Assembly (NCBI GenBank): GCA_033239005.1 | Contig: BSQZ01000010.1 | Location: 6,927,001 to 6,991,000 of the forward strand | Source of the DNA: Lamellibrachia satsuma | Lineage: Eukaryota > Annelida > Polychaeta > Sabellida > Siboglinidae | Reading direction: 5' to 3' | DNA: 64,000 nt | In this document: positions 21,365 through 62,403 of the stretch, in pieces | How positions within the stretch are numbered: position 1 is the stretch's first letter | How the letters are laid out: each line of letters starts with the position of its first letter | Program-made: the position numbers and the translations under genes | The notes under the pieces: generated by a model | Seen by the model: only the letters and a program-made list of their open reading frames with translations | The model's database searches: none | Told to the model about the DNA's origin: nothing

Positions 21365-23438
21365 ATGGACTCCAGAAAGCGGAAAGCTTTAATTGATTGG
21401 GTAAGTTCACATTTTCCAATTTGGCAGCATAGTCAGAACTATAGAACTATCTACATTCAACTTGCCAGATTTCTAGAAATTTTATAAACCAAACTCTTTG
21501 TTGAATAATGTAAGCTATTTTTTGCTGAATAAGCTAGTATCAGTTTATGTATTGTGAGACATGTTTATAAATATTGTTTGTGAAAATTGGTAATGTTGCA
21601 TGTGATGATAACATGTTCTGCACAGCTAAGTTAAGGTAGTTCATTAACTGCAATGTTGTTTCAGTGTATCATTCTCCTGCTTCGCAAACTTATTTAGCCA
21701 ATATCTATCCCATCAGCCCACTCTGATACGTTTTTTTCTGCATGCTTTCTGTATTCAGGTGAATTCTCTTTCTGTTGGGGACTGTATTGAGTCCTTACAC
21801 CAACTACATGACGGAAAACATCTTGTCCACATCACGGCCCTCATGTGAGTTATATATCTGCCATCTCCACACGAATAGTTTGTCTAATAACTGTTTGATG
21901 ATGTTTTGTTGCTAACTATTAAAACTGCAGCATCTGGTTTGATTAACTAATACAGAACACTGCAGACTTGTGGTAGTATTTTCATGTACAGCTACATAGA
22001 CGTTAACATTATCACAGATGCGTGAATGAAAAGTTTTAAGTAGTGTAGAAAATTAGTAGTTCAGTTTCACAGAATCATTAATTTTTTACATATGCTGATT
22101 ACTCTTGTGTGACAGAGATGAAGAGAGATATTGCAGCGTGGAAGACCTAGAGAGTGTGGACGCAAGATATGATTGCATTGCTGAATGTCTGGCCGGTGAG
22201 TGTCAGGAATAGTACAGTCACATGAGTCCCATCACTTGTGGTAATGCCCAAGTTTTTATATTCCCGGAACCACAAATCCTGGTGAAGATGAACAAAGTTC
22301 TATGTTGGTGTCCCTGAAGTCCGGGTTGGGGCTGGCATCGATACTGTTCGTTGGTTTTTGTTTTCTCCTCCTTCCGTCACTGTCAATCTTTTAGGGTCTC
22401 ATTTCCTGTCAATCAAGTCTTGTCCCAGTGTATTGTTCTGTGAGATTCTCTGTCTGAAGATGCATTTAGGGGAACATAGTCTGCTCTTGAAGGTTAAATA
22501 GTGTATTCTTGCACTTTTCGATAAACTTGTACAACTAAACAGAGCAGAATCCTTTACAAAAGATAACAATGAGGGATAAACTGTATTTGGCAGAAAGTGA
22601 AATACTCTGTGTATGCAATGGCTTCCGTTTCCTGCTTTTGTCACATATTGTTGCAAGTCTGCACACAATGTAATGGTGTTCTAACTGGGCCTTGTTTAAC
22701 TTGCCAGTGTTGGTGCACGTAGAGATTACAGTTCTGCCCATAGAGCACACCTGCATGTTTTCAGGCCAATACCACACCAGTATGCAGGGTCTCGTTGACT
22801 TTGCAGCCATCTCGACAAGTAATGAGCTTGAGATCGCCAAGGTTTGTGTCATGCTTGATCTATTAACGTTATATTAACGTGGAATGGAAGTTTTTAGGAT
22901 AAACTAACAGTTTTCCCCAGACTGTAAAATATGACATTTGTGCCATGTGATTATTTATGCCATGGAAGTAGGTATTAGGAAAATTAATTGATTAACATTA
23001 ACTGACACATCTCCAAAATGTTTAGTAATATTAAAAATATGGTTTCGTTCAATAATTATACAAGTTTTTGTAATGTGCTGTGCTGGGAAACTGCTCAAAG
23101 GTGTACAGTATAAATATAAGTAAATAAATAAAATAGTAGTTGTTTTGATTTAGGAGAAATGGTGTATGCAATGCTTTAATTTCTGTGTCGACATAATACA
23201 GTACACAGAAAAAAAAACACTGTTGAAGTCTACATGCTGTCATCCAATCAGGTGTGTCTGCTACTGTTGTCTGCGAGCCTGCTGTGCGAGAAGAACTCGA
23301 TGTTTGTTGAGTGTGCAATGAAGTTGGATGTGTCAACGCAGCGAGAGGTGCATGACATGGTGCAGCATGTCCTTCAGCCGGACAACCGACTTCACGGGCT
23401 TGATACGACTTACCACATTGTGCTGTGCAAGACTCTAG
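21365..23438 (+). CDS. NUMA1: NUMA1 exons 1-5: N-terminal hook domain
   Basis: Exons 1-5 encode residues 1 to about 155. The start ATG (21365-21367) follows a splice acceptor at 21329. LIDWVNSLSVGD aligns with LLSWVNSLHVAD at the start of human NuMA, and the block ISTSNELEIAK followed by a Leu-rich helix aligns with LEGSELELAK plus MLLLYH. This globular head is the part that in human NuMA contacts dynein/dynactin. An alternative in-frame acceptor for exon 4 (22694 region) would add about 24 residues; the one chosen (exon start 22765) fits the homologue better. Confidence 0.9.
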
Positions 23439-26400
23439 GTGGGTGTTCCTAGCAGACTGACAAATAGAGCTTCATTGGAGTGTCATTCTGTGATCAATTA
23501 GGCAGTCTCAAGTTGGGGGTCATTGACCCCTGGGCAGCCCCAGTGTTGTTCCTGGGTTCCATGACAATCACAAAAATTATGTGTGAAAAACAAAGCTTGG
23601 GGACTTGAGCAAAATGCAGACATTTTGGTGGGGCATTGGGTTCAGCTAGTTGGAAGTTTGTCTAAAGGCTTTTGTCGTTGACATTCAGGGGTTTTCTGTA
23701 GGGTGGGGTAGTCAACATTTCTCAGCAGCTGCAATAAAGAAACCTCAAATTTATGGTATCCTATGATGTAGGGCTCAGCAGTGTTAATGTTGCTCTCCTC
23801 TTCATCCCTGATGCTGGCACCGATACCTGTCGTTGATTTTTTTTCCACTTCTCCGCTCCCCCATCCCTTGCTGTTCTCCCATTCCTGCCAAATCTCCATG
23901 TAGTCAATGGTACAGTATGAAGGTAGTAGGATACAAGTCAACATGTCTGTATGGGTACCTGCCCTCTGACTTTATAATAAAATACAATAAAAATACTTCT
24001 ATTGCACAAAAATCCTTGGGAGGCCCAAGTTCAGTGGTTCACAAAACAAAGGGGTTAAGCAGTTTCTAATTGGTTAGCATTCCAGTTGTGAACAGTTGGA
24101 TTGGTAGTATTTTCGGTAGATATTAACATGTGGGTGAAGGTTCCCAATGATATTAGTCCCTGGTCCTGTCTTTCTGTGATAATCTTGTTAGACTGGGTAT
24201 AAGGCAGTCTTCAGTCTCTTTATGTTCATACACTTGTAACAATCTATTGCACTTTTCCTTCTAACCTCTAAAAGCTACACTTGTCTCAAAGTTGACCGCA
24301 ATCACTAAATTTTATTTGTTAATTATGACAGTTATAATGTCTTATGTAAATGTTGGGTTTGTTTATGTATGTGAATACCCGCTTGTACAACGTTTGTGTA
24401 GTTTATTATGTTCCTGATGTGTCACAATCATAATTGACTTATGGTGATGTGGGTTAAGGAATAAAGTTATGGTTATGAAGTGTAGCAAATTAGCAAGGTC
24501 GTACTTGTTACTGGCAAAAAATATACATATTTGGATGTTGCAACCAGCCTTTCATACACAACCAAATAGCTGGGATCATGTGAACACTATGCCAGCACAT
24601 CAAGTTCTAAATACAAAATGTCCTCATGAACGCCGATGTTGGGTTTTTAATTTTGCAATATGTTCACAGACAACTCAATTGTTTTGTTGACATAGCAATA
24701 GCATTTATCTTGTGTGCTTTGAAACAAGAATAGCTTTAGTCAAATAGAGTGAGTATGCCTAGTTGTACCGTCACTCAGCTAACAAATATTTGCTCTACGT
24801 ATCTAACCCTCTGTCTGTCATGCACGGCTTTCACAGACGATTCGCTCAGAATGTCAGGAGATGGTCACAAGACGTCAACACCAATGGCATCGAACACTTC
24901 AACTTTGCTGCAAAATCCCCCCAACGGCATTATGGGAAATCTGTCATTCTGCAGCATGAAAGGTGGCCAATCTATCGGTCTTTGTTCATTGTTGTCGTGT
25001 TGTGTTCCAGGAGTCTTGTCACTGCCCGTCTGGTCGTTTGGCTTTTGTTTACATTAATGAATATACAAAATGTAACAATATTCCTATTGTGACACAATTG
25101 GGATTTCTCCTTGCTTATGTTGCACATTGTGACAATTATCCCTACCATCAGAGGGCAGCAGTGGCAACTCCATTTGATGTGTTCTTCTCACCCAATCCAA
25201 GATGTTTGTTGGGCAGGATACGTGGCATGGAATGTTGGTGTAACTGAAATTCTGAGCTTTCTAAAAACAAAATGGGCAACTGTAATATTGTATTCCAATC
25301 TGGTGAGGTTGTCCTCTATCACTGACTCTTGCTCATTGCTACAGCTATCTTGGTTTGGGTGTTTGTTAGTTCAAGTAGGGTGTAAACTTTGCTGACTGGC
25401 ATTGAAAGAGAACCGAGGGTTATTAGGGATTTACCAAATATACGTGGGACAATAATACACAGAAAGTGGCAGGTGAAATGGGTTAAACAAATCATTCGGC
25501 CTGTCAGTTTAGTCTGTTTGAGATTGTCTCATACCGAGTCTCGTACATCTTACCCAAAACAATGTTAGCGTTTGTTTGGAATGTTTTCATGAATCGTAAA
25601 AAGACGAGGAATTTGACAGTTAACTGATTGTGAGAATTTACAAGGCCTGCCTTCAATGCGTGATTTGTTTCTGTAGATAGTTATCCATCAAACCAAGACT
25701 ATCAGTAGAATGTGCAGTTTTGTACGTGCATGTTTATATTTTATTATTTATATGACATTTTCGGAGAAACCATTTGATGCGAAAAAAATATCCTGGCTGA
25801 ATCTGCCATTTTGAGCTTGTAAAGGTTTGCTTGCGTTGTTTTGTGGACATACACAATGTCAAAACTGCACGTGTTATTTTGAGCACTGCCACATGAGCCA
25901 CCAACATTCTAGCTGCATTCCTGTTCCATGTCAACCCTCGATCCAGAACCGTTGGTACGAAGTGTTAATGTTATAATATATTGTCACCAGGTGGCAGTGA
26001 TGTCAATGATTCGCCGATTGTGTTCTCAACGAGTATGTTCCACAGTGGCATGCGACCGTTCATGTCACCCCAGGGGGCAGGGTCAATGCCTGGGTCACCT
26101 CGGGGTTTTTCGCCCGTCCAGCAGCTGATGCACAGCCCCAGCATGGCAAAGAAGGTGGGTATATCTTCATGGAGCCAGTGGATTTATTACATGTCATAAT
26201 CTAGTGGAAAATTAGCTACATCGCAAGATGCTGACATTTGGGGTTAAAACATCGGGTTCAAAACCGGGTTCTTGCTGCCGTTTTGGAGCTTGGGCAATTT
26301 TGTTTTCTCCACCTTGCCTTAGTTCACTCAGCTGTAGCAATGAGTACCTGGATATAGGCAGTAGTGCATATGTGAACGAATAATTTTTACGCAGTAATTG

Positions 26401-29400
26401 CGGTGTGGCTGAATGCTTCCCAGAGAAGTTGAGTTAGTGTTGGAAATCGAATAAACGGGTTTCTGGGTGGGGGGTAAAGCGCTCGTAAGAACTTGCCTTT
26501 ACATTTTACCTTTGTGTTTATGTGACCACACCCATGACAACATATAATCTATTTTGCAGGTTTATCCATGGCGAGGGTAATAATTTAACAAGTTTCATTG
26601 AAACATTTCTTTATTTGCTGCTCCTTGTCGTGTTTGTTTGCTCGACTGACTGATGGTGCTGCCCCCTAGGTTCTGCTGCAACAGAGCGAGCAACAGAAGA
26701 GACGTTTGCAGCGAGAACTCAATTCAGAGCGCTACCTACGTTCAGAGTTTGAGGCCGAGGTGAAACAGCGGGAGGAGGACCTCAAGAAGAAAGGTACGTT
26801 TAGTCTCCTTGTGTAGTGTTTCTCAAACCTTATTCATTTCAGCAGAATAAACCTAAACGAAGCGGTTTATTCAACTTTATTCCAGCATTAACTTTTGAAA
26901 TATTGATATGATATATCAGCCATTGCCATTTCTTGAAACGGAGCAGTTATATCATTCTATTTTGGATGTGTTTATGTATATATTGCTCGTTGAATTTCAA
27001 TATCGCTGTGATATACAGTTAGTGTACTTTGCTAGTTACAACGAATTATAAATCAATCATAACTTTTCCGATAATAATTTCATCGGTTTTAGGTCATTAT
27101 TAATTTCACTACAAAATATGTCATCTGTTCATGATTTATCACACTGGGAACACATGACGTTTACTTAAAATGATAAATAATGCGTTAGATATGTCCAAGA
27201 GTTATGTTATAATGAAAGGGTAGGAACCCCCATCACTGTGTGTGTGTTTGACAGAGGAGCAGGTTCAGGAGTTGCGAGGTGAGCTGCAGCAATGTCGCAG
27301 GCAGGTTTGGCAGTCCCAGGAGGAGATGGACGCCCTCAAAACTCTCCAGAACCCCACCCTCAGTCTCCAGGAGCAGGGCACCAGGTAGGCAGGAAGGGAG
27401 GGGAAGTTAGTTTTAACAAGATTGCCATACAGAGCAAAACACCCAGATGGACAAGGAAGCCATTGGCTTATCGAGGTCCAACAATTTTTCATGTATGTGT
27501 AACCCACCCTTCTGAGATGTCAGTTTTGTTTTTAGACATGTTCATGCTGCTAGCATATGCACTATCTGTAGATAATTTGTTCAGTTCATTTATTGTCCTC
27601 TGTGAGAACGAGTACTTTCTGATATTCAATATTACTTTAATAGCACCTTTGATTTTGTCCGCCACAGAATCCAGGAACTTGTGAAACAACTGAAAGATAT
27701 GAAAGAAAACAATCAGCACCTGGAGAATGAAACTGCCTCACTGTATGAGCAGAACGAAAGTCTGCAAAACGAGGTTTGTTGGTGGCGCTGTCTGTATTAT
27801 TTGTATCAAATGCTTGTATCAAAGTGCATTGATGACAATTATGTAATGTTTTGTTTCTATTAAAAGCTTTCTTTTTTTCAATCATGTCCTGAGACAGAAT
27901 TAACTGAGGTGCATGATGCACGCATCTGGCATGACTTGTATGGTTGAAAGATGGAGTCCACGACAGGTTACACATTTACCCCCTGTGTGGGATCTTTTAC
28001 TTCCCCTGGTAGAAGGGCCCAGCAGCTTTTAGTGTCTTATCCGAAAGGCACAGGCAAAGTTTTGAAACAGCAGTATGTGAACTCAAACCGCGGTTCTCTT
28101 GATTGTCACTCAGAATATGTTAGAATAAATATAAGTTTACTACATGGCATGATTTTTACAATAAATACAATCAGACTTTGTTGCTTTAATGTACCCATTT
28201 GTTCAACAGCTGCGCAAGTTGAAGTCGTTTGCTGACAGTAAGCACAAGTCTGAATGCCAGCAGCTCATTCAGTTGAATGCAGATCTCAAGGCTGCAGTTC
28301 AGGAGCGTGACGACCGTCTGGCTGCACTGACACATCAGAATGAGTCACTACAGAGCGACATTCTGCGACAGACAGAGCAGCGACAACAGAAGCTCGACGA
28401 GTCACTGCGACGCAGACTCGACGCGAGTAAGTGTTACTCTGAGCGTGGTCATGCTACATTACAGCATCGATAGCGCCTAAGGGAACCTGGCTCAAAACCG
28501 CAACAAACCAGAATTGTTAAAACCCCCTCCTTTATTGATATTGCCCATCATGTTGCAGGTTAGTTGAAGTTCAGATCTCTAGTGCATGAATAGTTGTAAC
28601 TATCAGTCAGTTTAATGAAATTGTTTGAACTGTTGGAAGAATTTATCATTAGCTTTGGTAACTTATGAAAGTGTCAATAGTCTTTTATGTCATAGTGTAT
28701 AGAGCCCCAATTGAGCTTTTTTGCTGAACTTCAAAACTGGACCCAGCAGAAAATAATTTAATTGTTTGTCCAATGATTTAATCAATACTAAATAACACAT
28801 TTGCACAAACAAGCTAGCATGTCGTAGTGGATACTAGATGTAATACAAGACAAGCAAAACAATTTAATTGAAGAGAACATTTTTATAATTAAGTTTATTT
28901 GTTTGTTTGTTTTGAGCTATTTCATTAGCTCTGTTTCTGATAATTTGTTTCTGTTATAAATGGCTGGTATCTCTACCCTCAGGCATCGACAGTATGTCGT
29001 TTGAGAACATGGCTGGTGTCATGGAGCTGCAGCTTAGAGAAGAGCTGGCTAAGCTGCAGGTTAGTACAAGCACACAGCTAATCTACAGCTAATCATGTGA
29101 TTCCAGAGTTTGTGCTAGTCACGATACATGTAGCTGTATGGTTCATCATGACATCCCTGACTTGTAAAATAATTATACTTGCTAAAATGCCATAAACAAC
29201 CTGAACCAAGATGCCCATGGATGCTTATGTGTGACTCGAAAGCTAAACGTTATTAATCCCATTACTTTCTGCACAGGGTTACAGCAAGGTGTTCTTCAAA
29301 GTTAAGATTAAATGCACATACAGCTGATTAAAAGTGGTATCATAAAACTTTGGGATGATCCCTTCAGTGAGTTCTTGTTTATTTAACCTGTTTAATGTGA

Positions 29401-32400
29401 CCACTGGTTATTCCCCAGGCTGAGCTGCAAGAGAAGTCTACTACAAGGTCCGCAGAGTTCAGCAGATTGACTGCGGAAATCGGTGACCTACAAAAGGTGG
29501 GCATTGCCCTGTGCTGCTCTTGTGTCAAGTAATTTAAACTAACTTACGGGAGCGTTTGTGTAGTTAGGTAGTTATATTAATTCTAAAGACAACGCCAAAA
29601 CTTGCACTGATCAGAAAAGTTGAAAATTCATGATCTTGCACTTTGAGCTACGTCAAGCCGCTGGGCGTAATGCTTTACTCAGTTCCTGCATCTTTAATCC
29701 CTGCTATCAGCCATATCTTCCGCATGTATCCCTTCCCTGTCTTTACCTTCCACCCTCTATCCACCACTACCCATACTAAAATCTCCCAATTATCTGTCCA
29801 TCTTGATTCCCATCTTCCCTGCCTCCTCTTCTCACTTACACCTACTTTGCATGTTCCCTTAGTTAGCCTCAACCTTGTTTTCCCACATTTCCTTTTTTGT
29901 TGTGTTTCCTCCACCCTATAATTCATCATCCCTTTGGTTATTCTTGTGTTATTTCATAAATTCTCCAAACCCATCTCTGCTAACTTTCAACTGCTAACCA
30001 ATCTAAACCGTTCGTGGTGGTTATACTTAGCCTCTCACTACTTACTTTTCAATCTGCAAGAATCTTTTTTGATACTTCTGTGATAAAATGACCAGATGAT
30101 CAAAGAGGTGCCGTATTTTGTGTCGATTGTGTGCTGGTTTTGAAAAGTTGCTTGTTTATTTCCTGTTGAAAGCACTGCATGTTAGGTTCTTTCATCTGAT
30201 TGTATGTAATAGGTGTTCAGATGGCCAACCCTCAGTAGTTCTGTCATAATAAGTAATAAACAGTTCCAATGTACTTGATCATATCAACACAAGAATAGTC
30301 CATGTCACTGTTATCCACAGTCTCCAGAAATAGATTTGGGCCATTTGATTGGCACTTCAAAATTTATGAAATTACAACCCTGTGTCTTGCCCAGATCTGA
30401 ATCATGTTTGGCTCCGAAACATTTCCCATTTCCTCTGAAATCTATCCATGAAGGGTCACGAAAAAGCTGGAATTTTACAGCTGTGTATGGGCTCAGTAGT
30501 TACGTAAGTCCTTCCTAGCTTCCCCCCCCAAGGCAGACCTAGGTTCTTCAGGATATGCGATTTGCTTTCTCTTTCAGCAACTTGACGAGTCAAAGTCTGA
30601 GACTCTCACTTGGCGGCAGACGTCAAAAGAGCTGGAGTCTCGCTGCAGAGACATCGAGTCACAACTCCTGTACATGGAGTCAGCTCGCTCCGAGCTTGAA
30701 TCGTCTCTTGTGGAATCCAAGTCCCAGTTCTCAAATTTACAGGTGGAGCTGAAAGAGGTGGAGTCACGTAGTGGTTCGCTGGAGGGGGAGCTAGCCGACT
30801 CTAGAGCCTGCTGTGATGCTTTGGAGGAGGACATGGAGGGTTTGAAGTTGCGTGTGTCCACCCTGGACAGCGAACTACAGGAGTCGAGGTCAAGTTGTAT
30901 TACCCTGGAGGATGAATTGGGGTTGACAAATTCACGGTGCAGCAGCTTGGAAGAGAGACTGGAGGACTCCCGGTCACATTGCTCCGCTGTGGCAGGTGAA
31001 CTGGAGCAGGTGAAGTTACAGTGCTCCGGTCTGAAGAGCGACCTTGGTGTGTCTGTCATGAAGTGCTCCTCCCTGGAGAGCGAGATAGAGGGCCTGAAGT
31101 CACGTTGTGGTGCCACGGAGGGTGAGTTAGAGGGAGCGAAATCTCATTGTTGCATGTTGGAGGGAGAGCTACTAGAGATGAAGATGTGCTGCAGTGGACT
31201 GGATGGCGAGATGCAGGAGAAGGCACGGTCTTGTGTCGCGTTGGAGTCTGAGCTCCTGGAAGCAAGGTCACAGTGCTCTACCTTGGCGGAGGAGCTGCAT
31301 GGATTGAAGAATCGGTACTCCACCCTTGAGGAAGAACTGCATGTGTTACAGACATATTGCGCCACCTTACAGGAAGATTTGCAAGTGTCAAAGACTCACT
31401 GCTCCAGCCTGAAAAAAGAGTTCCAAGCATCAAAGATGACTTGCTCCAGTCTGGATGAAGAGTTGCAAGCCACAAAAACGATTTGTTCCAGTCTGGAAGA
31501 AGAGTTGCAAGCCTCAAAGATGAATTGCTCCAGTCTGGAAGAAGGTTTGGAAGCCTCAAAGTTGCATTTTTCCAGCCTGGAAGAAGATTTGCAAGTCTCA
31601 AAGACACACTGCTCCAGCCTGGAAGAAGAGTTGCAAGCATCAAAGATCAATTGCTCCAGTCTGGATGAAAAGTTGCAAGCTTCAAAGATGCATTGTTCCA
31701 GCCTGGAAGAAGGTGTGCAAGCCTCAAAAATGCATTGCTCCAGTCTGGAAGAAGAGTTGCAAGCCTCAAAGATGCATTGCTTCAGTATGGAAGAAGGTTT
31801 GCAAACCACAAAGGCAATTTGTTCTAACCTGGAAGAAGAATTGCAAGCTTCAAACGCGCATCGCTCCACCCTAGTAGAAGAGTTGCAAGCTTCAAAGTTG
31901 CAATGCTCCAATCTGGACGAATTTTTGCAAACCTCAAAGATGCATTGCTCCAGTATGGAAGAAAGTTTGCAAACCACAAAGGCGATTTGTTCCAGTCTGG
32001 AAGAAGAATTGCAAGCTTCAAAGACGCATTGCTCCAGCCTAGTAGAAGAGTTGCAAGCTTCAAAGTCAGAATGCTCCAGCCTGGAAGAATGTTTGCAAGT
32101 GTCAAATACACATTGCTCCAGCCTGGAAGAAGAGTTGCAAGTATCGAAGGCGAATTGTTCCAGTGTGGAAGAAGAGTTGCAAGCGTCAGAGATTAATTGT
32201 GCGAGTCTGGAAGAAGAGTTGCAAGCATCAAAGGTGAAGAGCTCCAGCCTGGAAGAAGAGTTGCAAGCATCAAAGACAACTTGTTTAACCCAGAAAGAAG
32301 AGTTGCAAGTTTTGAACAGCCAGTGTTCTGTTCTGGAGTTGCGGCTCCAAGAATCAGTAACATCCAGCTCTGTAACACACGAGGAGCTGGTGGTAAAATG

Positions 32401-35400
32401 CTCTGACTTTAAGCAAAACTTGCAAGAGTTGGCTCAGCACTGCTCATGTGTTGAGGAGCAATTGCTTGAATCAAAGTCAAACTGCTCCAGTCTACAGGAA
32501 GCGTTGGATACTGCAAAGACCCAGTGCTCCACCTCAAAGGCTTGGTGCTCCACCCTGGAGGAAGAGTTGCAAGGGTCAAAAGCTCAGTGCTCCACCCTGG
32601 AAGAAGAGTTGCAGGGATCAAAGGCTCAGTGCTCCACCTTGGAGGAAGCGTTGCAAGGGTCAAAGCTTCAGAGCTCCATCCTGGAGGAAGAGTTGCAAGG
32701 GTCAAAGGCTCAGTGCTCCACCCTGGAGGAAGAGTTGCAGGGGTCAAAAGCTCAGCGATCCTCCCTGGAGGAAGAGTTGCAGGGATCAAATGCTCAGTGC
32801 TCCACCCTGGAGGAAGAGTTGCAGGGATCAAAGGCTCAGTGCTCCACCCTGGAGGAAGAGTTGCAGGGGTCAAAGCTTCAGAGCTCCACCCTGGAGGAAG
32901 AGTTGCAGGGATCAAAGGCTCAGTGCTCCACCCTGGAGGAAGAGTTGCAGGGATCAAAGGCTCAGTGCTCCACCCTGGAGGAAGAGCTGCAGGGATCAAA
33001 GGCTCAGTGCTCCACCCTGGAGGAAGAGTTGCAGGGATCAATGGCGCAGTGCTCCATCCTGGAGGAAGAGCTGCAGGGATCAAAGGCTCAGTGCTCCACC
33101 CTGGAGGAAGAGTTGCAGGGATCAAAGGCTCAGTGCTCCACCCTGGAGGAAGAGCTGCAGGGATCAAAGGCTCAGTGCTCCACCCTGGAGGAAGAGTTGC
33201 AGGGATCAAAGGCTCAGTGCTCCACCCTGGAGGAAGAGTTGCAGGGATCAAAGGCTCAGTGCTCCATCCTGGAGGAAGAGCTGCAGGGATCAAAGGCTCA
33301 GTGCTCCACCCTGGAGGAAGAGTTGCAGGGATCAAAGGCTCAGTGCTCCACTCTGGAGGAAGAGTTGCAGGGATCAAAGGCTCAGTGCTCCACCCTGGAA
33401 GAAGAGTTGCAGGGATCAAAGGCTCAGTGCTCCACCCTTGAGGAAGAGTTGCAGGGATCAAAGGCTCAGTGCTCCACCCTGGAGGAAGAGCTGCAGGGAT
33501 CAAAGGCTCAGTGCTCCAACCTGGAGGAAGAGTTGCAGGGATCAAAGGCTCAGTGCTCCACCCTGGAGGAAGAGTTGCAGGGATCAAAGGCTCAGTGCTC
33601 CACCCTGGAGGAAGAGCTGCAGGGATCAAAGGCTCAGTGCTCCACCCTGGAGGAAGAGTTGCAGGGATCAAAGGCTCAGTGCTCCACTCTGGAGGAAGAG
33701 TTGCAGGGATCAAAGGCTCAGTGCTCCACCCTGGAAGAAGAGTTGCAGGGATCAAAGGCTCAGTGCTCCACCCTGGAGGAAGAGTTGCAGGGGTCAAAGC
33801 TTCAGAGCTCCACCCTGGAGGAAGAGTTGCAGGGATCAAAGGCTCAGTGCTCCACCCTGGAGGAAGAGCTGCAGTGTTCAGCATCACTCTGCTCTACCTT
33901 AGAGAGTCGGCTACGGGGGAGTTCAGAGGAGTCCGGTGAGCACATTGTGGCTCTGGAGTCTGAGTTGCAGAAAGCTCAGCAGCAGAACTCACAGCTCCAG
34001 AGAACTGTGGCCAACTATGAGAGTCAGGTGTCAAGTCTTGCGAGACAACTGGCTAGCAGTGACTGTTGCGCATCATCAGAGTCTGAAGGTGGTCATGAGA
34101 TGCACGGTCTTACCACCCTCAAGTCGAACATTGCGGCGTACTGCAACAAGATGTCTGAGCTGCAGAATGCAATTGCTGCTGCTGACGTGGAGTACGCTGC
34201 CTTGAACACAAAGTTTGTGGAAATGGAGCGAAGTGAGAAAGAACTTGTTGCCACTCTCCATGCGGAACGTGTTGAGTGGAGCCAACAGGAACAGCTGCTC
34301 CAGGAAACACTTGTCTCCCTAGAGGCCAGTGTGACAGAGGCCAAGTCTCTCGAAGAGGAACTGCAGAAGTCGGTGGAACTTCTAGAGGCAGATCTGGGAG
34401 AGCAACGCAAAAACGTTCTGGTTTTGTCAGAGGAGCTTAGCTGCGCTCGTGTGAAGATCACCGAACATGGCATTGAACTCGAGTCCATGAGCAAGCAGCA
34501 CGAATATGTCTGCTCAGAGCTTGAGTTGGCTGAAAGCGCAGTCGAGAAGTTCAAAGGTCAAGTGGATGAACTTCAACTGGAGGTCACCACTCAGATGGCC
34601 AGGCTTGACGAGACAGCAGAGGAGGGGAAAGCTGCAGAGGAATTGACATCGTTGAAAAACCGGGTGTCGGTTCTGGAGGAGAAGCTCGCCATGTCTCGTC
34701 GCGAAGTTGCCTTGCTTGAGGAAAATGGAGTCATTGCTCGCAATCGGTTGACCAAGCTCGAGGAGGATTTGACAGTGGCACACTCTGAGAAGCTGGTGGC
34801 AGAGGGACAAACTCGCGAGGAACTCAACTGTGCAGATGAGCGAGAACAGTCGCTCGAGCGCGACCTTGACAGCGCTCATCTTCACATCAGTGAACTCGAG
34901 GAGCAACTCGAAAAGATGCGTTCGGAGTTGGAGTCCATGTGTACAGTAAGTTTGTTGCTGTTTCACAGAAAGTGTTTCTTCTGTGTCATCGTTTGCATGT
35001 AGCATCTAAACATGTCAAGTATCAACAGTTTGATTATAATAACTGCAGTATCCAGATTTGGGAAAATTTTATACCTCTATCTTGATCGTACACCTGCATG
35101 CATCCCTGTTTCCGTGCCTCTCTACCTTGTGTTATGCTTCAAGTGTCTTTACTGTCCTTGCCTCTTGTCCTCCCTCCTCACCCTACCTCTATTTCATCTC
35201 CTTCCCCCCAGCCTCTCCCCTTTGCTTCCAACCCAGCCTATCCTTCCTTCCCAGCCTCTCCCCTTTGCTTCCAACCCAGACTCTATCCTCTCCTTCCCTC
35301 CCAGCCTCTTCACTCTTTCCAACTCAGCCTCTCTCCTCCCCCCAGCCTCTCCCCTTTCTCCCCCAGCCTCTCTCCCTTCTTCCCATTGCTTCAGAAGTTG

Positions 35401-38400
35401 TGTAGTTATTATGCCAATTATTAAACCGGAAAATATCGGCGCAAAAGTAGTTTGTGTCAATATTAGAAATAACCAAAATATTTACCATTATGTTTTGTCA
35501 ATAATATGTAAAACGCCAGTGAAAATCATCACATTTCAAACATGATACGCATATCTACCAACATTTCTGTTGTAACTGACAAACAGGAAACGTTACTTAA
35601 TTCAGTTGTTTATAAAAACTACAACACTTACGTTGCTGCAATTTGGTGCGTCTTACATGTAGGCAACGAATGGTAGGTTTGCGTTAAAAATACACTGCCA
35701 CTTTAGGCGATCATTCAACTTTTGCTTAATCCATTCAGGGTGGTGTAGCAGTAACCTTAAAGTTATCAGTGACACTATCATACTTATATGTATGTCATTT
35801 TAGTCTTTGATGACTTTCTCAAAACTATAATTTTGTGGCTATTTTTTCACATTTACAAATTTTTTTAAAAATCTTATGATAAAACATTAAAAAAAAATTA
35901 ACTAAGTAAATGAAAAACTCCAAATTTTATTCATCTGGAATATTATATAAAATGTTAACTACAATCTGTGAAGAAATGGTTCATTTACCTTTAAAATGTC
36001 TTCTGAAACCACTCGGTTCAAGACAAGCATATAATACTAGCCACCGTAATGACCACGTGATATGCCCCTCCCCAAAAAAATTGCAGAATCTGATCAGGAA
36101 TTTTAAAAACAAGTACTCCCAACCCACACACTTCTTTCACTGCCTTGATAAGCTAGGATTAATTAAAATGTAATTAGTGTGATGTGATTTTATTTATTAT
36201 CACTCAGTTGACAGTACTCTTTAATTAATTGTTGTTTGCAGAAAATATTAGCCTAAAATGAAGATCATAGTGCAGTTACATTTGTTTTGTATACAGTGGA
36301 ACCTTGTTAACCTAGACGCTGATAATCCAGAGACCTCGGCTCCATGGCATCATTTCATGGGAACAGAATTTCCAAAAATATATACCTCGTTAATTGCATG
36401 ATTTGTTTATTCGGAAAAAATTTTAATCCTGAGACATTCACTGTGGTATCCAGATTAATAAGGTTCCACTGGACATGATCAAAATCAACATTTAAAAAAA
36501 ATGATGTATCAAAAAGGGGTTGTTTAATATAATAATAAACTTAAAACAAAATTAGTTGAACCAGAATATATGTAATATAGTTGTATTTCAGCCAATCATT
36601 GCTACTGTAAACCAAAATGTATATTTGTTCGCTGTGATTGACCACCAACCCTACTTCTGTAGAAAGTGGCGTCGCAGGAACAAGAGAGGTTGGAATGGCA
36701 GCAAACAGCCACAGAGGCAGAGTCACGCTGCTCTGGTCTGGAGTCAGAACTCCAGTCTGTGTCTGCTGATGCCGCACAGCGTATCTCGTCCTTCAAGGCA
36801 GAGCTGGATGTGGCTCGTCAGAACAATAACGAACTCCAGGTGAGAGATGCAGTAATTGTACTCAGTCATTGTGATTGTGTGTAATCGACAACAGTTCTTG
36901 AATAATCATACTCAGTTACATTGCGAAAGTAATCATGATTACGATTTTCTTGTGCATATTTATGTTGCCCTGGTCCAAACTACAATGCAAGCAGGCTTTT
37001 CTCTTCATTTTGTATCTAATGCAGGTGCAGTGATAATTTTTTTTTTTTGTCTTCAATAACATTCGCAACAGTAATATAATTTTTTTTATTATAAACTATA
37101 TTCATAAATGTAATAATTATTACAAAAGTAATCATAATCGATAAGTAATTGTAAGTTTAAGCATACTCATAAACTTTAGCACTAACCGTAATGTTTTTAG
37201 TGGCAAAATCTATTACATTTGTGATGTAATAAATTTCACGTGTGGTGTAATCGATTACATTCCACTCCAGATCACGGTGGACAAGTTTGAGAAACGCATT
37301 GCAGCTCTGGCCACAGAGCTCGGAGCCCATCTGGAGCAGACAAACTGCACAAAGCAGGAGCTGCACACAGAGCTGGCCGCCGCCAAGGTGAAGCACTGCC
37401 ATCTGCAGGGAACGCTCGAGGACTCGCGCAAGAGCATCATAACGCTTGAGGCCAGCTTCGATTTGTACTACACAAAGGTTTGCATTTATCTTTATTTATT
37501 ATTATCATTATATATTATTATTTGCACGATCAGCTACTGATTGTCTGTGGGACAGAACTATGCAACTCATTGAGTGTCAGCATTACTAATGTTCGGTTGT
37601 TCAACAATTTTAAATCATGCTATAGAAGACAGTTGTTGGAAAGGTTATATGCTGACGACATGTAATGGTCATCACATGATATATGTAATCATACATCATT
37701 TCATTTCTGTTCTTATTGTTGTTTGTAACCATTGATGAAATTTGATGCAGATATATTTAACTGTGTGGCGTAGTGGTTGGAACATCGGACTCTCAATCGA
37801 GAGAACCCAGGTTCGAATCCTCTCGCTGCTGTTTCGAAGCTTTGGCAGTTTCGTTCATTCCACGTTGCCTCAGTTCATTCAGCTGTAAATGAGCACCTGA
37901 GATAGAGGTAGATATGTATAGGAAAATTCAGTAAATGCAGCATGGCTGAATATTTCCCAGAGAAGTCGAGATGGCGTTGGAATGAACAGGTCTGCCATGG
38001 ATGAAGTGTAAAGCACTTTGAACAGTCCCAAGGATTGGATACCGCGCTATATAAGAATGTACTTTTATTATATGTGCAGTGGGTCACATTGCTATTTTTA
38101 ACTGCTTTGAGTATTGTAGTGAGGAATTAACGCGACATCATAAGTATGTTCCAGTCTTACGCCTTTTAATTTATTTTAAATTGTATTATAAACTGATTTA
38201 TTTCAATAAACATTCTTTAATTGAAGGTCTTGAAGCTGGAGGAGGCATTGAAGTTGTCACATCAGGAGTTCTCTGAGATGCGTTCTCACATGGAGGAAAC
38301 AACGGCCAGGTTGACGGAAAAGGAGGCTTTGGAGCGCGAGTTTGTTGAACGGCTCGAGTCAAAGCATTTAGAGCTAAAGGAAACAGAGGATCGACATCGG

Positions 38401-41400
38401 CAACTGGATGAATCACTTGCGGTTGTGCGTGCCCAGTTGGAGGAAAAAGAGAATCGGCAGCAAGCAGTGGAACAGACGCTAGAGGCGATCCATGTACAGA
38501 TGATTGAGAAAGAACAACAGGAGAAGGAGATATCTCGCACATTAGAGACGGCACACGCCCGGTTGGAAGAAAAAGAGAATGTGGTCTCGGAACTGAGCAC
38601 AACCTTGGAAACTGTCCAGAAGGAAGTAGCGTGTTTGGAGGAACAACGGGAGGCTGGAGAGAAAGAGAACGCCTATCTGAAGTCCGAACTGGATTTAGCA
38701 CAGAGCTTCATTGGTGAAGTGAAGGTTCAGATGAAGGAGCTGGAAGTGAGGATTAACGTCATGGCAGCGGAGATAGAACAGGAGAGTGCGCAGCTGGTCA
38801 AGGCGATGGCGGAGTTAGCGGCAGAGAAAGAGAAGGTGGAAGCACTGGAGGCGGAGTTGGTGACAGCTCGTCGCAACTACGGCCAGCTCGAAGAAGACGC
38901 ACGGCTCCAAATCAACGAAATCGAGGTGCATGTGGGCTCTTTGGAAATGTCCATAGAGAAGAAGTCACAAGAAGTGGAGTTTGCACAAGAGAGCAGTACA
39001 CGGTACAAGAAGCAGGCTGCAGATGCACAACAGGCAGTGAAGCAACTACGTCAACAGTTACAGGACCTGCAGGTCGAGACGAACAGCGACGTCGCTGCGG
39101 TCAAGGCAGCGCAAGAAAAAAAGGCATTGGAACTGCAAGCGGCAATGGAATCGGCCATGGAGACGAGCGAAATGTTCCGGATGAAGTCAGAGAAGTGTGA
39201 GGAGACGATCCGCTCCCTCAAGACCCAGGTTGGTCGGCTTCAACGAGAGGTCGAGGACGAGGTGGAAAATGCCGCTGCAGCTATGCAGCAGCTGGAGGAA
39301 GAAAAGGGTAGATATGAACATAGGCTGGAAGAAAAAGTGGAACGGCTGCAACAGGTGGAACAAAGGCGAGATGAGTTGGAGGAAAAGTTACGTGAAAATG
39401 GGGAGTTGGAGGAAATGAAGGCACGGCTAGGGCAAGCGGAAGAAGAACGTGAGAAGTTGAAGGTTTGTGCCTTTGGCATGTTAATGACAGTATATAAAAA
39501 CTCAACAAATGGGATTTGAAAATGTTAGTGTACTCTGAATCTGGGATATCTGGTAGTGTTGCAAAAAATATAAAACAAATATTTATTTATCGTTTTTATT
39601 TGTAACTTTTCGACTTATCCAGGTTTATTTTTCACCAAGTGTTTTGTTGATGTATATATACCATGTGTTTGACCATATACCATGTGTTTGACCATATAGC
39701 ATGTGTTTGACCATATACCATGTGTTTGACCATATACCATTACGACTATGTATATACCACATAATAGATAACTGTGAGACTATTGTCTTGAATTAATTTA
39801 TAAAAAAATGGGATTTGAGGAAAAGCGTGTTGATCATGTGTCAGAGATGATAATATTGAATCATGTGGCAAACGCTATTTACTGAGGAACCCACAGATGG
39901 TAGGCAATCTGTAACCGTATTCATGCATTCTTGGGGTGTCTGAAAGCACAATTACAAATGTCCATCCACTGATAAACCGATTTCTTGAATACTTTCTGAT
40001 TCACAGGTTCGCCACGAGAGGGAGCTGTTGGGCATCTCTGAGCGCTTGACACAGTGCGAGCGATTGAAGACGAAGTTGGAGCGAAGTGTGCAGTCACACA
40101 TGGAGCGCGAGCAGAAGTTGCTGACAACGCACGAGGTCGACATGGCACAGGCGGCGCAGTTGAACGAGAGGCTACGGACACAACTAGAGGAACGGGAGGC
40201 AGAGCTAACACACCACCGGGATGATTTAAAGAAAAAGGTATTTGTGTTGAAATTAGTATTGGAAATATTTTTTTAGTTATTGCAATTTTGTGAGTTATGC
40301 CTTTGTTTCTGTAGTACAGCCATAATTGCAATTTTTTTAAACACTGCATCCACATGCACCCGGGAACAGTTACACTTTAGTGGATGTATTTCTTAATTGG
40401 TTCATTTGTCACCAGATGGAAACTCTGTCAGAGAAGAAGACCGAGATGAGTGCTTCGTACGAGAGTCAACTGAACGACCTTGAGCAGCGATTCCAGGCCC
40501 GATTGGACAAGGAGGCAGCCAAATCTAAGAGGAAATGTGACGCGCTAACAGCAAGTGTGACCAAGGTGTGCAGTTGTCACTTTTGACTTTTGTTGAATTG
40601 TCACGGTAACACCAGTGGCATCCAGTATCTTTCCGTGTGTTATACCTTAGATATACTTTGATACGAGTGCAACTTTGGAATACGCTTGTTATATTTGCTC
40701 TGGGACATGCCATCTTGTCTTTGATTTACATTTCGCTGCCTATGCAAACATGTTTGTGTGTGTATATATATATATAAATATATATTTATATTACAACTGC
40801 TTGCTGTGCATTTATTGGAATTGTTCCTGTGACACCTAACCCTGTTATGAACTTTTACCGTGCAGGCTCAGCAACAGACAGCTGACACGAGGCAGCGTCT
40901 CGAACAGTGGAAGGAGGCGGCCAATCAGGATGCATCACAGGTGGCAGCGCTGTCGGAGCAATTGGAGCAGACACGCTCAAAGTTGGTGCAGACAGAGGCG
41001 CGATGTCACGACCTCGAAGCCGAGATTACCTATCTCAAGACAAAGCTGAACGACAGGGAGAAACGATTAAGTGAGTCTTTAGTAGTCGTTGCTGTTGTTG
41101 ATTGCTATAGTAAATGACTACCTTTTATTTAGAAAAAAAATATAAGATACAAAATGTTGTCTGCACGAGTTCAGAAAATATTTATGCGAGATTTATTTTG
41201 CCAATTCATCAACAGTATCAGGGATGAGTTTTGTCTGCTCGTCATGGATGGGAGTTTGTGGTGGTAAACTTTGTGTACATGTGCATCCAGCTTTGGATTA
41301 TGTACGATACAGTTGGATCTTGCCTTTTCTTAATGGAAAAAATTCTGTACAATTTGAACTGTTCCATAGTCAAAATTCTCAAATCGTATGGTTTTGATTC

Positions 41401-44400
41401 TGTTGTTGACATGTCAGCTTTTTTAAAAGGAGTATGAGACATATTTGATCAAGAATTTCCCCTCAAAAATTTTCTATGATTTTGGTGAAATGCCACTGAC
41501 TCTGATATTGGCAATGCAGTGTTAATATCGGGATGCTGAGGTGGAAGATTCTGACACTGTTGCCGTGCTCTAGGTGCCCAGATACGTAGCCTGGAGGTAC
41601 AACTTGCACATGCCAGTGCTCAGCTCAGGAACGGCTCACAGAAGGTTCCTGATCGCCGCCAAACTATGGCGCCACCTACCACCACTGCTGTGCGAAACCG
41701 GAGGAAAGAGACGACTTTCGAAGCCGCTGGTATGATTATTATTTTTTGGCATGACTGACAAAATGGTACATTTGGAGTCTGAACATCCAGAAGAATTTTG
41801 CAAACGATCATTTCAAGATTTCTTCATTGTGAAACTGTTTTAATGTTTTTGTGACTTGCTAAGGTAATGTCACTGAAAACTCCAGACCTGTGCACCTAAT
41901 GCCATAGCTTTCAGTATTCTCAGCCAATTTCAGTAATTTTAACTGACTTTCAGTAACACTTTTGTCGTACAAAAACTACACCAGTGTTCACACACAAACT
42001 ATACTATGCTACTCATTATTTTTAAACGCATCATAATTAAGAAAACTCGAAATACGATTTTTTTTAATATATTCCTTTTTTTTAAACTGCTCGGGTTACA
42101 CCAACTATCCTCCCATCAGCAGGCCATGTAAATTTTTTTTCTGCCCATTAGCCTCATGTTTGTTTGACTCAACATGTCGGCGAATGTCATTTCCACTGCC
42201 ATGACCAATCGAAAAATCTTTGTTGCAAAATATACAGTGAGCATAACATGACAATCGTTCGACGCCTGTACAACACATGACCATTGCGTTGTGTACGACG
42301 TCCGAAAAATCTGCGTATGGGCACGTTTTCTAGGTGGCACTTCGTCATGTTTTGATGTTGATACCCGGGTCGTTGGCAGACAGTGTGCGCAACTCTAGCG
42401 GAGACATTGTATTCGTAATTTTAATATGCGCGATTCCATAACAAAATGAATGAAGGCAGATGGGTCTAGTTAATCTAGGGTGCTCTGAATAATAGATTAC
42501 TGTATCAAGCCCTGGATGGTAACGTGAGAATATGTAACTCCTAGACGTTAGACATCTGAACAACCAGTAGATACAACACAGACAGTCTTGTCTTAGTCCT
42601 GTAACTGGTATATTGAACTACATGTTGGCGTATCAAACTACTATATTGTTATGCAGTTACAGTTAACCTGTGAAATGTTCTGTTAGGGGCTGAGGACTCG
42701 TTTGAAGTTGATCCAATCGCTGCATATCACCTGCATTCACATCCGTCAGAAGAACAGGTCAAAGCGAGGCTGTCGATGTCCACGTTCTCTCTCGCTAGCA
42801 CGTAGGTGGCACCACTCTTGAGCAGTTTATGTGCAGACAAGTATTGAGCAGTTGTAAAAGTATGATCTGTGTCATGTTAGTTACTTTGATTGGAAGAGAA
42901 TTTGGCGTTTTGCTGGTGTGGTCACTGATCATGTGTATTTACGGGAACTGTTGCCGAGGGTTAGACCAGTCAAGAGGACCATGATTCAAATCCACTTTCA
43001 TTCACTGCACATTGCTTCAGTTCACTCGGCTGTATAAATGAGTACCTGGCGAATAGTCTTTGCACAGTAATTGCAGCATGGCTGAATGCTTCTCAGATAA
43101 GTCGAGTTGGTGTTGGAATAAAAACGGGTTTTCACAGGTGAATGGTTTGAGCAGTCCTAAGGACTGGATACAGCGTTATACAAGAACATATCTTTTACTG
43201 CCAGTAACTGTGTTTAGAAACATGTTATTAATTTAGTTTCAGACACAGAACAAATGTACACAATAACTCTGAAACAGTCTTTATTTCAATTTTGGTTAAA
43301 TGCAGAACTATTAAAAAAAGTTGAATGCTTGCCATCAGGAATGTAATCTCGTTTGCAGCGTGAGCCCTGCGGAGAGCCTAGAGAGTGTTGATAGCAACAG
43401 CAGTAGGAAACCCGACGCGAATGGAGTGGTTACACGATCGCGGGGGTCTGCCATCGAACCTTTAAGATCTGTGAACATTCCTGGTAGGTTCCTGTCTCTG
43501 TATCAGAACTCTTGCTTAGTGGTGTGTTTTCAGAACTTTAAACGGTCTCCTCCATTAATTTATCCCAACACGAATCACATTCATAGTGCATGAAAAGTGA
43601 TATGCACAGTCAGTTTAATAAAAGAAGAGTGTGCGTTTTACATATATGGTAATTATGACTAAAAAAAGTTATTTAAGAAAAACCATACAAGCAATGCTTT
43701 TTCTTAAAGGGAAACAAAAGTCAAGGTTTTGGGCCTATGCACCTGTAAAAGTTACTAAAACATAATCATTTGCAACTACAATTAAGAATATCATGCCAGT
43801 GGTTTACTAGGAAAACCGTGTTGAACACACAACATCTTAATTTCATAGGGCGCCGTCCTGTTAGATAACCCTATATCACGAGTGTCATAGTCTGGAAATA
43901 TTCGCTTGCCAAATGAAAATATATTTGCATACACCTATTGCTATACTTGCCAATAGGTTGTGGCCATGCTGTTTGTGTCCAAACTTATGTAACATATTTT
44001 GGCCTTTGTTTATTTAGCTGTTTAGGGGGGCAGCCGTGGCCTAGTGGTTAAAGTGTTGGACTCTAAATCCAAGGGTTGTGAGTTCAAGACCAACACTGGG
44101 CACGGTTCGTTTTCGAAGCTTAGGCAGTTTCGTTTACCCTATTTTGCGTCAGTCTACTCAGCTGCAAATGAGTACAAACACTGTTTGGAAGGTACCTGCG
44201 ATGGACTAGTGTCCCGTCCAGGAGAGTCAGTATAACTGCACTCTAAGTTGCTTCGCACTACAGAAACCAGGTTTAAGCACTGCCTTCATGGCTTCCTAAG
44301 GCGTAATGCCTGGGGGATGACTTTACCTTACCTACTACCTTACTTAGCTGTTTACTTGTTTGAGACTGCGTTGGTTCTGTGTATGCCGGCATCACATAAT

Positions 44401-47400
44401 ATGTCACAAGTAATGTAGGTTACCCCGATTTCATAGAACAGTGCTTGTCGGTCGTACTGGCTCGTGTCAGCCCTCATTCAGCCAGAGAAATGACAGGGTT
44501 CTCCCACTTTTAGGACACGTTCTGAGTAAACCACTGGCATGATATTCTTGATTTTAGTTTTTATTATCTTTTAGGTGTAAATCTCCAAAACCATTACTTT
44601 TGTTTTGCTTTAAATATAAACCATGAAAAAATTTATAAAAGTTGTCCTACCATAAACAGTATGTAATAAAAACTGTATAGATATATAGTACTAATATATG
44701 CATTACAAGTAAGCATTTTGGTTGTGTCTATTCGTAATAAAATGTGAAGCTTATCGTTCCACTACAGCCGGCATGAGGGCACTGCTGTCTTCCGAGGATG
44801 AACCTGAGGAGTTAGAGTGGGGACGATTGAGCGAATTACAACGCCGAAACACCCTGTGCCTTCCACACATGCGATCTTGCTATCCCGTCGAACTACAGAC
44901 CGCCAGCCATACTGAAGACGAAGTTCTAGATACGGGCGCAACTCTCGACGACTCTATCGAGGTCAGAGGTTGTGGCCAAAAGAGGGCGCTGTCAGCATCA
45001 AGCGACACAGTGGCCGACGAGAATGTTGAATCGTGTGGCAGGAAGCGAAAGGTAATCATATTAGTCAAATAACTGTTGACAAGTCGGAATAATATTTCAG
45101 TTGCCATGCTTATGTTGACCAAAGCTAGTAATGTCTCATTTAATTTTGAAGATATACAGAGATAATACATTGTTAGTCTGGCAACCAAAAATATTGATAT
45201 ATTTTGTCTGAAAAGTGATTACTGCTGAAGACTGGCAATACGCATGCACATTTTGCATGCAACTATTTCATGGTATAGCTGTTGTATTGTTTTTAATGGA
45301 ACTGCAATATATAATATTTTTGCATGTGAAATTATGAAGCACCCACCTACCCATTCCTAGCATGTCTTGTGCTCCCTGCCTTTACGTGATCAACATTGTT
45401 GATCATATGTTTCCTGTTACTTCTATTTTAAGGCATGCAGTTTCACTCTAATCTACGTTCTAAATACTTTCATGATATTGACATGGTTTGGTGAGTGAGT
45501 TTACAAGACCAGTGAGGGTTTATTTTTAGCCGGAACACGTTTATAAATTATCAACACCTGGTGTGAAGTTGTATCGACGATACGATCTCCGTCAGATCGC
45601 TGAGGATGAGACATGTCCAGATGGCAGCACTTGTGCTAAATCAGCGCAGAAAGTAAGATGGCGACCAGAGTGTCTTGTAGGGTTAGGTGGGATGTGCCTT
45701 CTGCCATTGTAGAAATTTATGAATATGTAAATATGCATGCTTTCGTAGCTATGTGATCCCTCTCTGAGTACCGTTGACGTGATTTTTGCTGTCAGGATAC
45801 AGGTTTTGATGGTGTATGTTTCTTTCAGTGTTCAGCATGCTCCCTACTGCACGTGTGTGTGTGCATGCATGCACCCTCACTGCATGCTTCTACTGCTTGT
45901 CTCGCATTCCTTGCACGTTTCTTGTACATTTGCTGGAGGAGTCACATGTCACTAAAGTGATGGGCTCGTTAGCAGTTCTCTTCACAATGTCATAAAGTTT
46001 CTGTAAATGTTAGTCTTCATCCTTGCATTAATGAGGCATATTTTATGTTGTAATCTATGAGAACAATTTCCATCAGAAAGTAAATATGTATGACAATGTA
46101 TTGTATTAAATACATTTTTTCAGAGCATTTTTGTTTTGATAAAGAACATCCCCTGTTATAGAAGTTTTCTGAGTATTTTTTTAATGGGGTTGCAATTTGT
46201 CAGGGGATGAACAGAATTGTAATGATTGTGTTTCACTAATATTTTCCTGTGCACATACTGCTCTTCAGCAGAACTGGCAAAACTGAATGATCCACTTTGC
46301 TCTTTGATCAAGCTTTAAAAAACATTGCCTTCTCTATTCAGTTAATACTTGGGTGGCCAGTTTTTTTTCAGTTGTGATTGCTATTTACTGTAGAAGGCTA
46401 TATAATTTATAGTTTTAAATAAAATATGGCCCAGAGTCACTTTTTGACCTGAAGCTGCTGCAGGGTGAAGCTAAAGTCATAACCCTGCACTATTGTTTCA
46501 ATTCTTCTGTAAGTTCTCTTCTAATACCACAAAAAGGAAACAATATTTATCCTTAACACAAGTTATGGCGAAATCGTAATCCTAATGCTTGGTGATCATA
46601 TTTAGTTCTTGCTGTGGAGATGGCAACCCTTCTCTGTGGTGTCAAACTATAACAGAAACATTTTATTCATATAATTAATTTGCAAATATGACGTTTCTTA
46701 TGATATAGGAACAAATACAAAGGAAAATAAACAACTTGTATAGTGCACAGTGGTAAATTCTGATAACATGAACATTTCCATCTCCAGACTACGAGTTACC
46801 AGCGACCTGGCCCACCAACTCCAAGGATGAAGATGTTTGGTTCGACAAGCACCCTGTCGGTGGAGGGCACCCCACATAAGACGCCCCGCCACAAGGCCTC
46901 AGGGAAGTCTACCCCAAAGAGTATGTGGCGGCTACGCAGGTTCGGTCTCAAGACACCGAAGAAAGGAACGCCAAAGAAGGGAACTCCAAAGAGGACCGTC
47001 TCGCACGAGAACGATGTACCTAAGGTGGGTCCGCAAGACAATGTTCGTGAATAAGGAATTTTGGCATCTTATACTTGTCGAAGGCACATGTCTATGAAAA
47101 AAGCAAATTTTATCAACCCAGATTGTGTGACTGATTATTGAAGTAGCTGGGGCAGCTAACGTGTCAGTTGATTTTTTATTTTCCCTCAACATGCTAGGAC
47201 ATATGGAACTGAACGTCGACACAAAAAATAATCACCCGGCACTAATGTCGTATTTCGCCAATCCATCCTTTAAAAAACCAGTCCTTTTGGAAATCCCCCT
47301 GACTTCTTAGAAACGCTTACGATGTTTCCATAGTTACGACCGCGTGTGCATTGAACCGCAAATTCTTTACCCATGAACGTGGGACATATCGTCTGGTTAG

Positions 47401-54407: not shown

Positions 54408-54672
54408 TTCAGCTGTTATACCATCATTTACTATGGTAACTGTGACGGAAACCAACAAGGACACTCAGCTGTTATCCCATCATTTACTATAGTAACTGGT
54501 AACTGTGACGGAAACCAACAAGGACACTCGGCTGTTATCCCATCATTTACTATAGTAACTGGTAACTGTGACGGAAACCAACAAGGACACTTGGCTGTTA
54601 TCCCATCATTTACTATAGTAACTGGTAACTGTGACGGAAACCAACAAGGACACTCGGCTGTTATCCCATCAT
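54408..54672 (+). repeat. 63-bp minisatellite, about 4 copies
   Basis: Unit ggtaactgtgacggaaacca acaaggacac... repeated at 63-bp spacing with few changes. Because 63 is divisible by 3 it keeps frames open on both strands; these are not genes. Confidence 0.9.

Positions 54673-56532: not shown

Positions 56533-62403
<5,871 letters not shown>

Follow-up and report, generated by a model that had tools for sequence, protein, structure and literature searches.

The window analysed here, a stretch of 64,000 nucleotides from the siboglinid annelid Lamellibrachia satsuma (assembly GCA_033239005.1, contig BSQZ01000010.1, positions 6,927,001–6,991,000, forward strand), contains a gene for NuMA, the coiled-coil rod of which includes a long in-frame array of 14-residue units. 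In-frame tandem growth of this two-heptad unit has probably given rise to a NuMA with a lengthened rod, where both ends of the protein are kept and the extra length would act as a spacer. The identity of the gene, the array, its register, its age gradient and its open frame are directly visible in the window; the array is real, ordinary in its mechanism, and unusual in its place and size.

The whole array is located in exon H (30578–34945, plus strand), which is open over 1,456 codons, is bordered by AG and GT and has phase 0/0, as was expected from the original prediction of an array confined to a single exon. According to the unit listing, counted by hand, the 14-residue (42-bp) register is in frame within the exon and spans positions 30686–33931, or 1,082 residues, slightly more than the approximately 1,068 residues between 30695 and 33898 that had been predicted. 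It is composed of 76 units of 14 residues, in agreement with the predicted number of about 76, plus one 11-residue unit (exon H residues 597–607) and one 7-residue unit (residues 650–656). Tandem Repeats Finder (TRF) revealed 42-bp arrays at 31373–32309 (22.3 copies, 76% matches) and 32534–33874 (31.9 copies, 93% matches); TRF picks up the better preserved parts of the array only and did not report its 5′ part (exon H residues 37–260). This part is a decayed tandem array, though it looks like an ordinary coil to the eye; nucleotide identity between neighbouring stretches is 0.47 at a lag of 14 residues and only 0.22–0.29 at lags of 7, 10, 11, 13, 15, 17 and 21 residues, and the mean pairwise nucleotide identity of the first 16 units is 0.476, vs. 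0.29 and 0.32 for two coil stretches taken from elsewhere in the gene and cut in the same way. Chance periodicity was rejected for the 5′ part, since both the lag-14 and the pairwise identities are far above chance. A search of the array DNA against the whole assembly, which skipped very common words, reported four matches, all of them at the NuMA locus.

From the 5′ end, all on the plus strand, the array consists of the oldest part of 16 units (30686–31357), a middle part of 23 units with the consensus CSSLEEELQASKTH (31358–32323, mean pairwise nucleotide difference 0.253), a junction with a coil-compatible phase shift, containing four units and the 11-residue and 7-residue units (32324–32545), the youngest part of 32 units with the consensus CSTLEEELQGSKAQ, represented by 16 distinct nucleotide versions (32546–33889, mean pairwise difference 0.074), and a final degenerate unit, CSTLESRLRGSSEE, where the register stops (33890–33931). 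Mean unit identity rises from 48% (first 16 units) through 75% (middle 23) to 93% (last 32), and the identity of neighbouring units is 0.33–0.62 in the oldest part, 0.60–0.86 in the middle part and 0.83–1.00 in the young part, except for its last pair (0.74). The array ages in one direction, with the latest growth at the 3′ side, and over half of it is old and decayed, so the rapid change of spindle/cortex reach suggested by the original prediction could fit the young 3′ two fifths only. Identical versions recur at many offsets among the 32 young units, neighbours being identical in 1 of 31 cases and units at an offset of eight in 5 of 24, and the longest exact repeats (171, 154 and 152 bp) are found at offsets of 8, 11 and 15 units. 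This recurrence and the long exact repeats suggest, without proof, that growth occurred by the exchange of blocks of several units rather than by slippage of single units; of the two processes proposed originally, slippage or unequal exchange, the unit pattern leans to multi-unit blocks but is not decisive. Two other parts of the rod, 38227–39462 and 33932–34945, are weakly autocorrelated at the nucleotide level, at lags of 14, 21 and 42 residues (0.30–0.37), possibly reflecting far older decayed unit duplications or a plain heptad bias.

When the Cys of CSTLEEELQGSKAQ is taken as position a (the register was assigned by hand), the a/d core is formed by Cys, Leu, Leu and Ser, a coherent coil core that agrees with the reading of the unit as two heptads; in our register, the g–e′ pairs Glu-Lys and Gln-Glu would fit a parallel in-register dimer. 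The core Leu residues (d and a) are kept in 32/32 and 32/32 of the young units, 19/23 and 21/23 of the middle units and 14/16 and 13/16 of the oldest ones, and in the middle set the most variable residues of the unit are the 13th (f) and the 14th (g). Since the unit equals two heptads, gain or loss of units leaves the coiled coil in register, and, because the 11-residue unit is a hendecad and the 7-residue unit a heptad, neither length deviation in the 1,082 residues breaks the coil. AlphaFold 2 (AF2) modelling of two array samples of 280 residues each yielded long helices in both: helices 2–64 and 69–279 for the sample 32678–33517 (mean predicted local distance difference test score, pLDDT, 88.7) and helices 2–109 and 114–279 for the sample 31376–32215 (mean pLDDT 92.0). 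The long central coil was judged from the register and AF2 within the array, and by eye in the remaining rod.

The gene model comprises 22 exons (21365–50110) with GT–AG introns, and its phase is unbroken between exon A and the stop codon. The join between exons h2 and A is a placeholder, and some head exons between 21844 and 25991 were not located, amounting very roughly to 100–170 residues by comparison with relatives. The model protein has 2,993 residues, two of them placeholders, and, with the unlocated exons, the predicted total of about 3,088 residues is about right. Exon h1 (21365–21400, plus strand, as are all exons of the gene; donor GT, phase 0) contains the start codon and the first 12 residues of the Hook domain, and exon h2 (21759–21844) encodes the next part of it; joined, they match the profile PF21670 (HOOK_N_NuMA) with an E-value of 2.1e-7 and 31.3 bits at a cut-off of 27, covering 33 of 152 profile positions, and h2 alone remains under the cut-off (20.5 and 26.4 bits). 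Exons A–G (25991–29496), supported by GT–AG borders, unbroken phase and alignment with relatives, encode a linker, which includes a conserved stretch containing SP, and the start of the coil. The block of exon F (28983–29059) around IDSMSFENMAGVMELQLREELAKLQ aligns with the GExM... block of spiralian NuMA relatives and less well with two fish proteins; it could be the dynein-binding motif, which is CC1-box-like or Spindly-like in NuMA. The array begins 84 residues downstream of the first methionine of this block and, with the positions of the human motif taken from PMC8047419 and PMC6297085, apparently sits directly behind the segment corresponding to the one that serves dynein binding in human NuMA. 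Exons I–O (36663–41729) encode the remaining coiled-coil rod and the coil end, and exons P–T (42687–50110) the tail, the stop codon closing exon T.

The tail provides a further indication of the relationship with NuMA. A search with the tail and coil end (residues 1470–1960 of the model without the array) scored 7,979 candidates, 12 of which reached E ≤ 1e-3, with Solemya velum as the best match (4.5e-20) and several matches bearing the source name NuMA; a second search with the Solemya tail retrieved 17 of 7,980 at E ≤ 1e-4, including the query itself, and reached the NuMA of zebrafish and seahorse. Exon R (44768–45051) contains the LGN-binding motif, EDEPEELEWGRLSELQRRNTLCLPHMRSCYPVE, which resembles the motif of 11 relatives (found by pattern matching, 18 tried) and is collinear with the human NuMA peptides in the structures 6hc2 and 3ro2, but weak on score alone (E 0.25 and 0.36). 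With exon H as the query, none of the 7,989 candidates scored, of approximately 800–2,548 residues, reached E ≤ 1e-10, and the sole match of the exon among solved structures was a streptococcal M-like coil. The gene is identified as NuMA by its Hook domain, its LGN-binding motif and the spiralian relatives of its tail, and the exon F alignment also upholds the original assignment. A different coiled-coil gene was rejected because both gene ends identify NuMA; the Pfam matches of exon H (ATG16, PUMA_CC, Crescentin, CENP-F and others) look like generic coil. In a tail tree of 12 rows the window groups weakly with the annelid Paralvinella (74/90, long branch); of 19 listed proteins, seven missed by the motif pattern were dropped, and P0010, P0015 and P0017 were left out. 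P0010, called golgin by its source, may not be NuMA.

With borders set by hand, the modelled rod covers residues 97–2551 and has 1,373 residues without the array; the coil of human NuMA extends over residues 213–1699, or 1,487 residues (PMC6297085), and its homodimer rod was measured at approximately 207 nm (PMC8047419, PMC6297085). As the non-array rod is near the human length, the array is treated as an addition, and the residue count of the rod should be 1.65 times that of human NuMA, i.e., about two thirds more. At 0.139–0.1485 nm per residue, the array contributes approximately 150–160 nm, close to the 160 nm calculated in the original prediction, and the length of the rod is predicted to be approximately 340–365 nm.

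In the scenario we favour, a two-heptad segment directly behind the presumed dynein-adaptor part would have been amplified in tandem, in frame and within one exon; the older copies would have decayed on the 5′ side, and newer rounds, probably by unequal exchange of several-unit blocks, would have added copies on the 3′ side. A full-length mRNA carrying the whole of exon H would then encode a NuMA that forms a dimeric coil, retains its head and tail and has a rod of about 2,455 residues vs. about 1,487 in human, and the extra rod would serve as a spacer, making a longer arm between the membrane- or LGN-bound tail and the dynein-bound head. Since the human coil is required for cortical pulling (PMC6037482), and additions to and deletions from it altered the nuclear lattice spacing (PMC8047419, PMC6037482), the longer arm would be expected to have its greatest effect at the cortex or on the spacing of the lattice.

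The original prediction called for a comparison of NuMA orthologues, and 21 database gene models of relatives were each compared with 40 block-shuffled versions in a scan for internal repeats, z of at least 8 being regarded as well above shuffles. The unit of the Lamellibrachia array was found in none of the 21. A lenient scan placed 10 of them well above shuffles, nine with repeats in the rod (Sinanodonta, two Lingula records, two scallops, Lineus, Babylonia, Aplysia and Tubulanus; P0002, P0004, P0005, P0006, P0008, P0009, P0016, P0017 and P0018) and Elysia marginata with repeats in the tail; six others, including the seahorse, were slightly above shuffles, and five, including zebrafish and a crinoid, were within them. 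A stricter scan retained six (Sinanodonta, the two scallops, Babylonia, Aplysia and Tubulanus). These spiralian proteins are products of the same gene with rod repeats of their own, but the units are different, and the longest stretch in the stricter scan, in Mizuhopecten, comprises 335 residues vs. 1,082 in the Lamellibrachia array. The best lags in the rods of the relatives were 22, 25, 32, 35, 50, 53 and 64 residues, with an 11-residue unit in Babylonia. The suggestion that repeat periods always have the form 7a + 11b was set aside as weak; every number above 59 has this form, so 64 is trivial, and the form also fits most of the non-significant best lags. The scan covers NuMA relatives only and gives no ground to call NuMA special among coiled-coil proteins.

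Translation of the array is well supported, since its decayed units are free of stops. The reading frame of exon H contains zero stop codons, and in the older part the five alternative frames contain 23, 13, 38, 2 and 8; a stop arises from 5.4% and 6.0% of the single changes to the consensus units of the two older parts, so about nine stops would be expected among the 159 distinct variants of the older parts (100 + 59), and none is present. With all differences counted, the ratio of non-synonymous to synonymous changes (N/S) suggests constraint (p = 0.002, 0.001 and 1.6e-5), but these p values are not independent because of the shared descent of the units.

Several observations weigh against the spacer reading. 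The synonymous excess loses significance if every variant enters the count a single time (oldest part p = 0.5, middle 0.20, young 0.09), and the two Leu positions alone in the middle set have six non-synonymous vs. four synonymous changes, with no synonymous excess; purifying selection on the unit sequence, inferred from N/S counts, was rejected for the former reason, and such selection is not established. The AF2 models were obtained for single chains without an alignment, and each sample split once into two helices; in the older part of the array, the donor-like positions 31712, 31796 and 31121 and the acceptor-like positions 31576 and 31408 have scores in the range of the gene's own splice sites; and the evidence comes from the sequence of one assembly. 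A serious rival, to which we give somewhat less than an even chance, is neutral tolerance: the array would be real and expressed, as in the spacer reading, with which it shares the structural part, but the rod would simply tolerate in-register length, with unit number drifting and no function attached. The unrelated shorter rod repeats of other spiralian NuMAs and the closeness of N/S per distinct variant to the neutral expectation speak for it; the stop-free decayed units and the mostly retained core Leu residues speak against it, as do the almost invariant length of vertebrate NuMA, from which a 2016 review infers that coil length is critical (PMC5082667), and the need of cortical pulling for the human coil noted above.

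It is unlikely that the tract is spliced out, or exon H skipped, in the main transcript, leaving a rod of ordinary length. The phase of exon H and the divisibility of 42 by three mean that the frame would survive both skipping and unit-to-unit splicing, splice-like sites between 31121 and 32122 have scores in the range of those of the 21 donors and 21 acceptors of the gene, and isoform 2 of human NuMA lacks 14 rod residues (PMC8047419). However, skipping of exon H would cost the protein approximately 374 further residues outside the array, the young array (32546–33889) contains none of the eight top-scoring donors and eight top-scoring acceptors inside the exon, and the open frame of the decayed units is as expected under translation.

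Repeated binding or modification sites, with length as a by-product, are a little less probable still. The units could, for example, present a ladder of core Cys residues or, where Ser or Thr is followed by Glu, kinase sites; Cys occupies core position a in 28/32 young, 20/23 middle and 11/16 oldest units, and the model contains 53 Cys pairs 14 residues apart vs. 0–6 in each of the 21 relatives. On the other hand, conservation of the two core Leu residues equals or exceeds that of Cys in the young and oldest units, as would be expected of a plain coil, and we know of no partner of the units. An assembly artefact affecting the array or its length is very improbable: exact repeats of up to 171 bp at a 336-bp offset could mislead short-read assembly, but the assembly is contiguous (735 Mb in 279 contigs), and the 16 distinct versions among 32 young units and the graded age are unlike assembler stutter; the array is taken as real because the young units are distinct enough for placement, and the exact copy number may be off.

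Tandem arrays of varying size occur in other spindle proteins, including the MELT arrays of KNL1/Spc105 and the IQ repeats of ASPM; those repeats are binding motifs, unlike the register-keeping coil units described here. Vertebrate NuMA (NUMA1) shares with the Lamellibrachia protein the Hook head, the long coil and the LGN-binding tail motif, but no tandem array was found in the two fish proteins examined, the seahorse protein being only slightly above shuffles. Budding yeast Num1 is a cortical dynein anchor with a central tandem array between two functional ends, but its array consists of thirteen 64-residue repeats (PMC6297085), and it has no sequence homology with NuMA. Deletion of the Num1 repeats left clustering and binucleate counts normal, and the region is still called pertinent to anchoring, with its role unknown (PMC6297085). 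No title on NuMA repeat expansion was found among the matches listed in the open-licence literature, and the extracts of PMC5725810, PMC4350178 and PMC11812572 contain nothing on NuMA rod repeats.

A NuMA with 1.65 times the human rod offers a ready-made natural test of arm length against pulling force, capture distance and lattice spacing. Natural length alleles could come from the 42-bp unit. The rod repeats in nine of 21 relatives (six in the stricter scan) hint that length invariance may be a feature of vertebrates rather than of NuMA. A more speculative suggestion, which we regard as possible but doubtful, is that the length of the NuMA rod is an evolvable ruler in spiralians, with register-keeping tandem coil units arising independently in many lineages; here, a dynein arm about two thirds longer than in human would tune the distance of cortical capture or the spacing of the spindle-pole or nuclear lattice.

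Outside the NuMA gene, Pfam gave no name to the flanking open reading frames; those at 12670–12999 and 59585–60523, both on the minus strand, presumably resemble LRRC51/LRTOMT and RNF121, which we take to be neighbours of human NUMA1, with no Pfam support. COX1 (PF00115) had no match in the 735-Mb assembly, which may not include the mitochondrial genome. Pieces of a non-LTR retrotransposon, with endonuclease and reverse transcriptase domains (PF14529, PF03372 and PF00078), are located at 29–2141 on the minus strand, and TRF reported two more tandem arrays beyond the gene, at 51067–51564 (44 bp, 11.3 copies, 98%) and 54434–54673 (63 bp, 3.8 copies, 98%).

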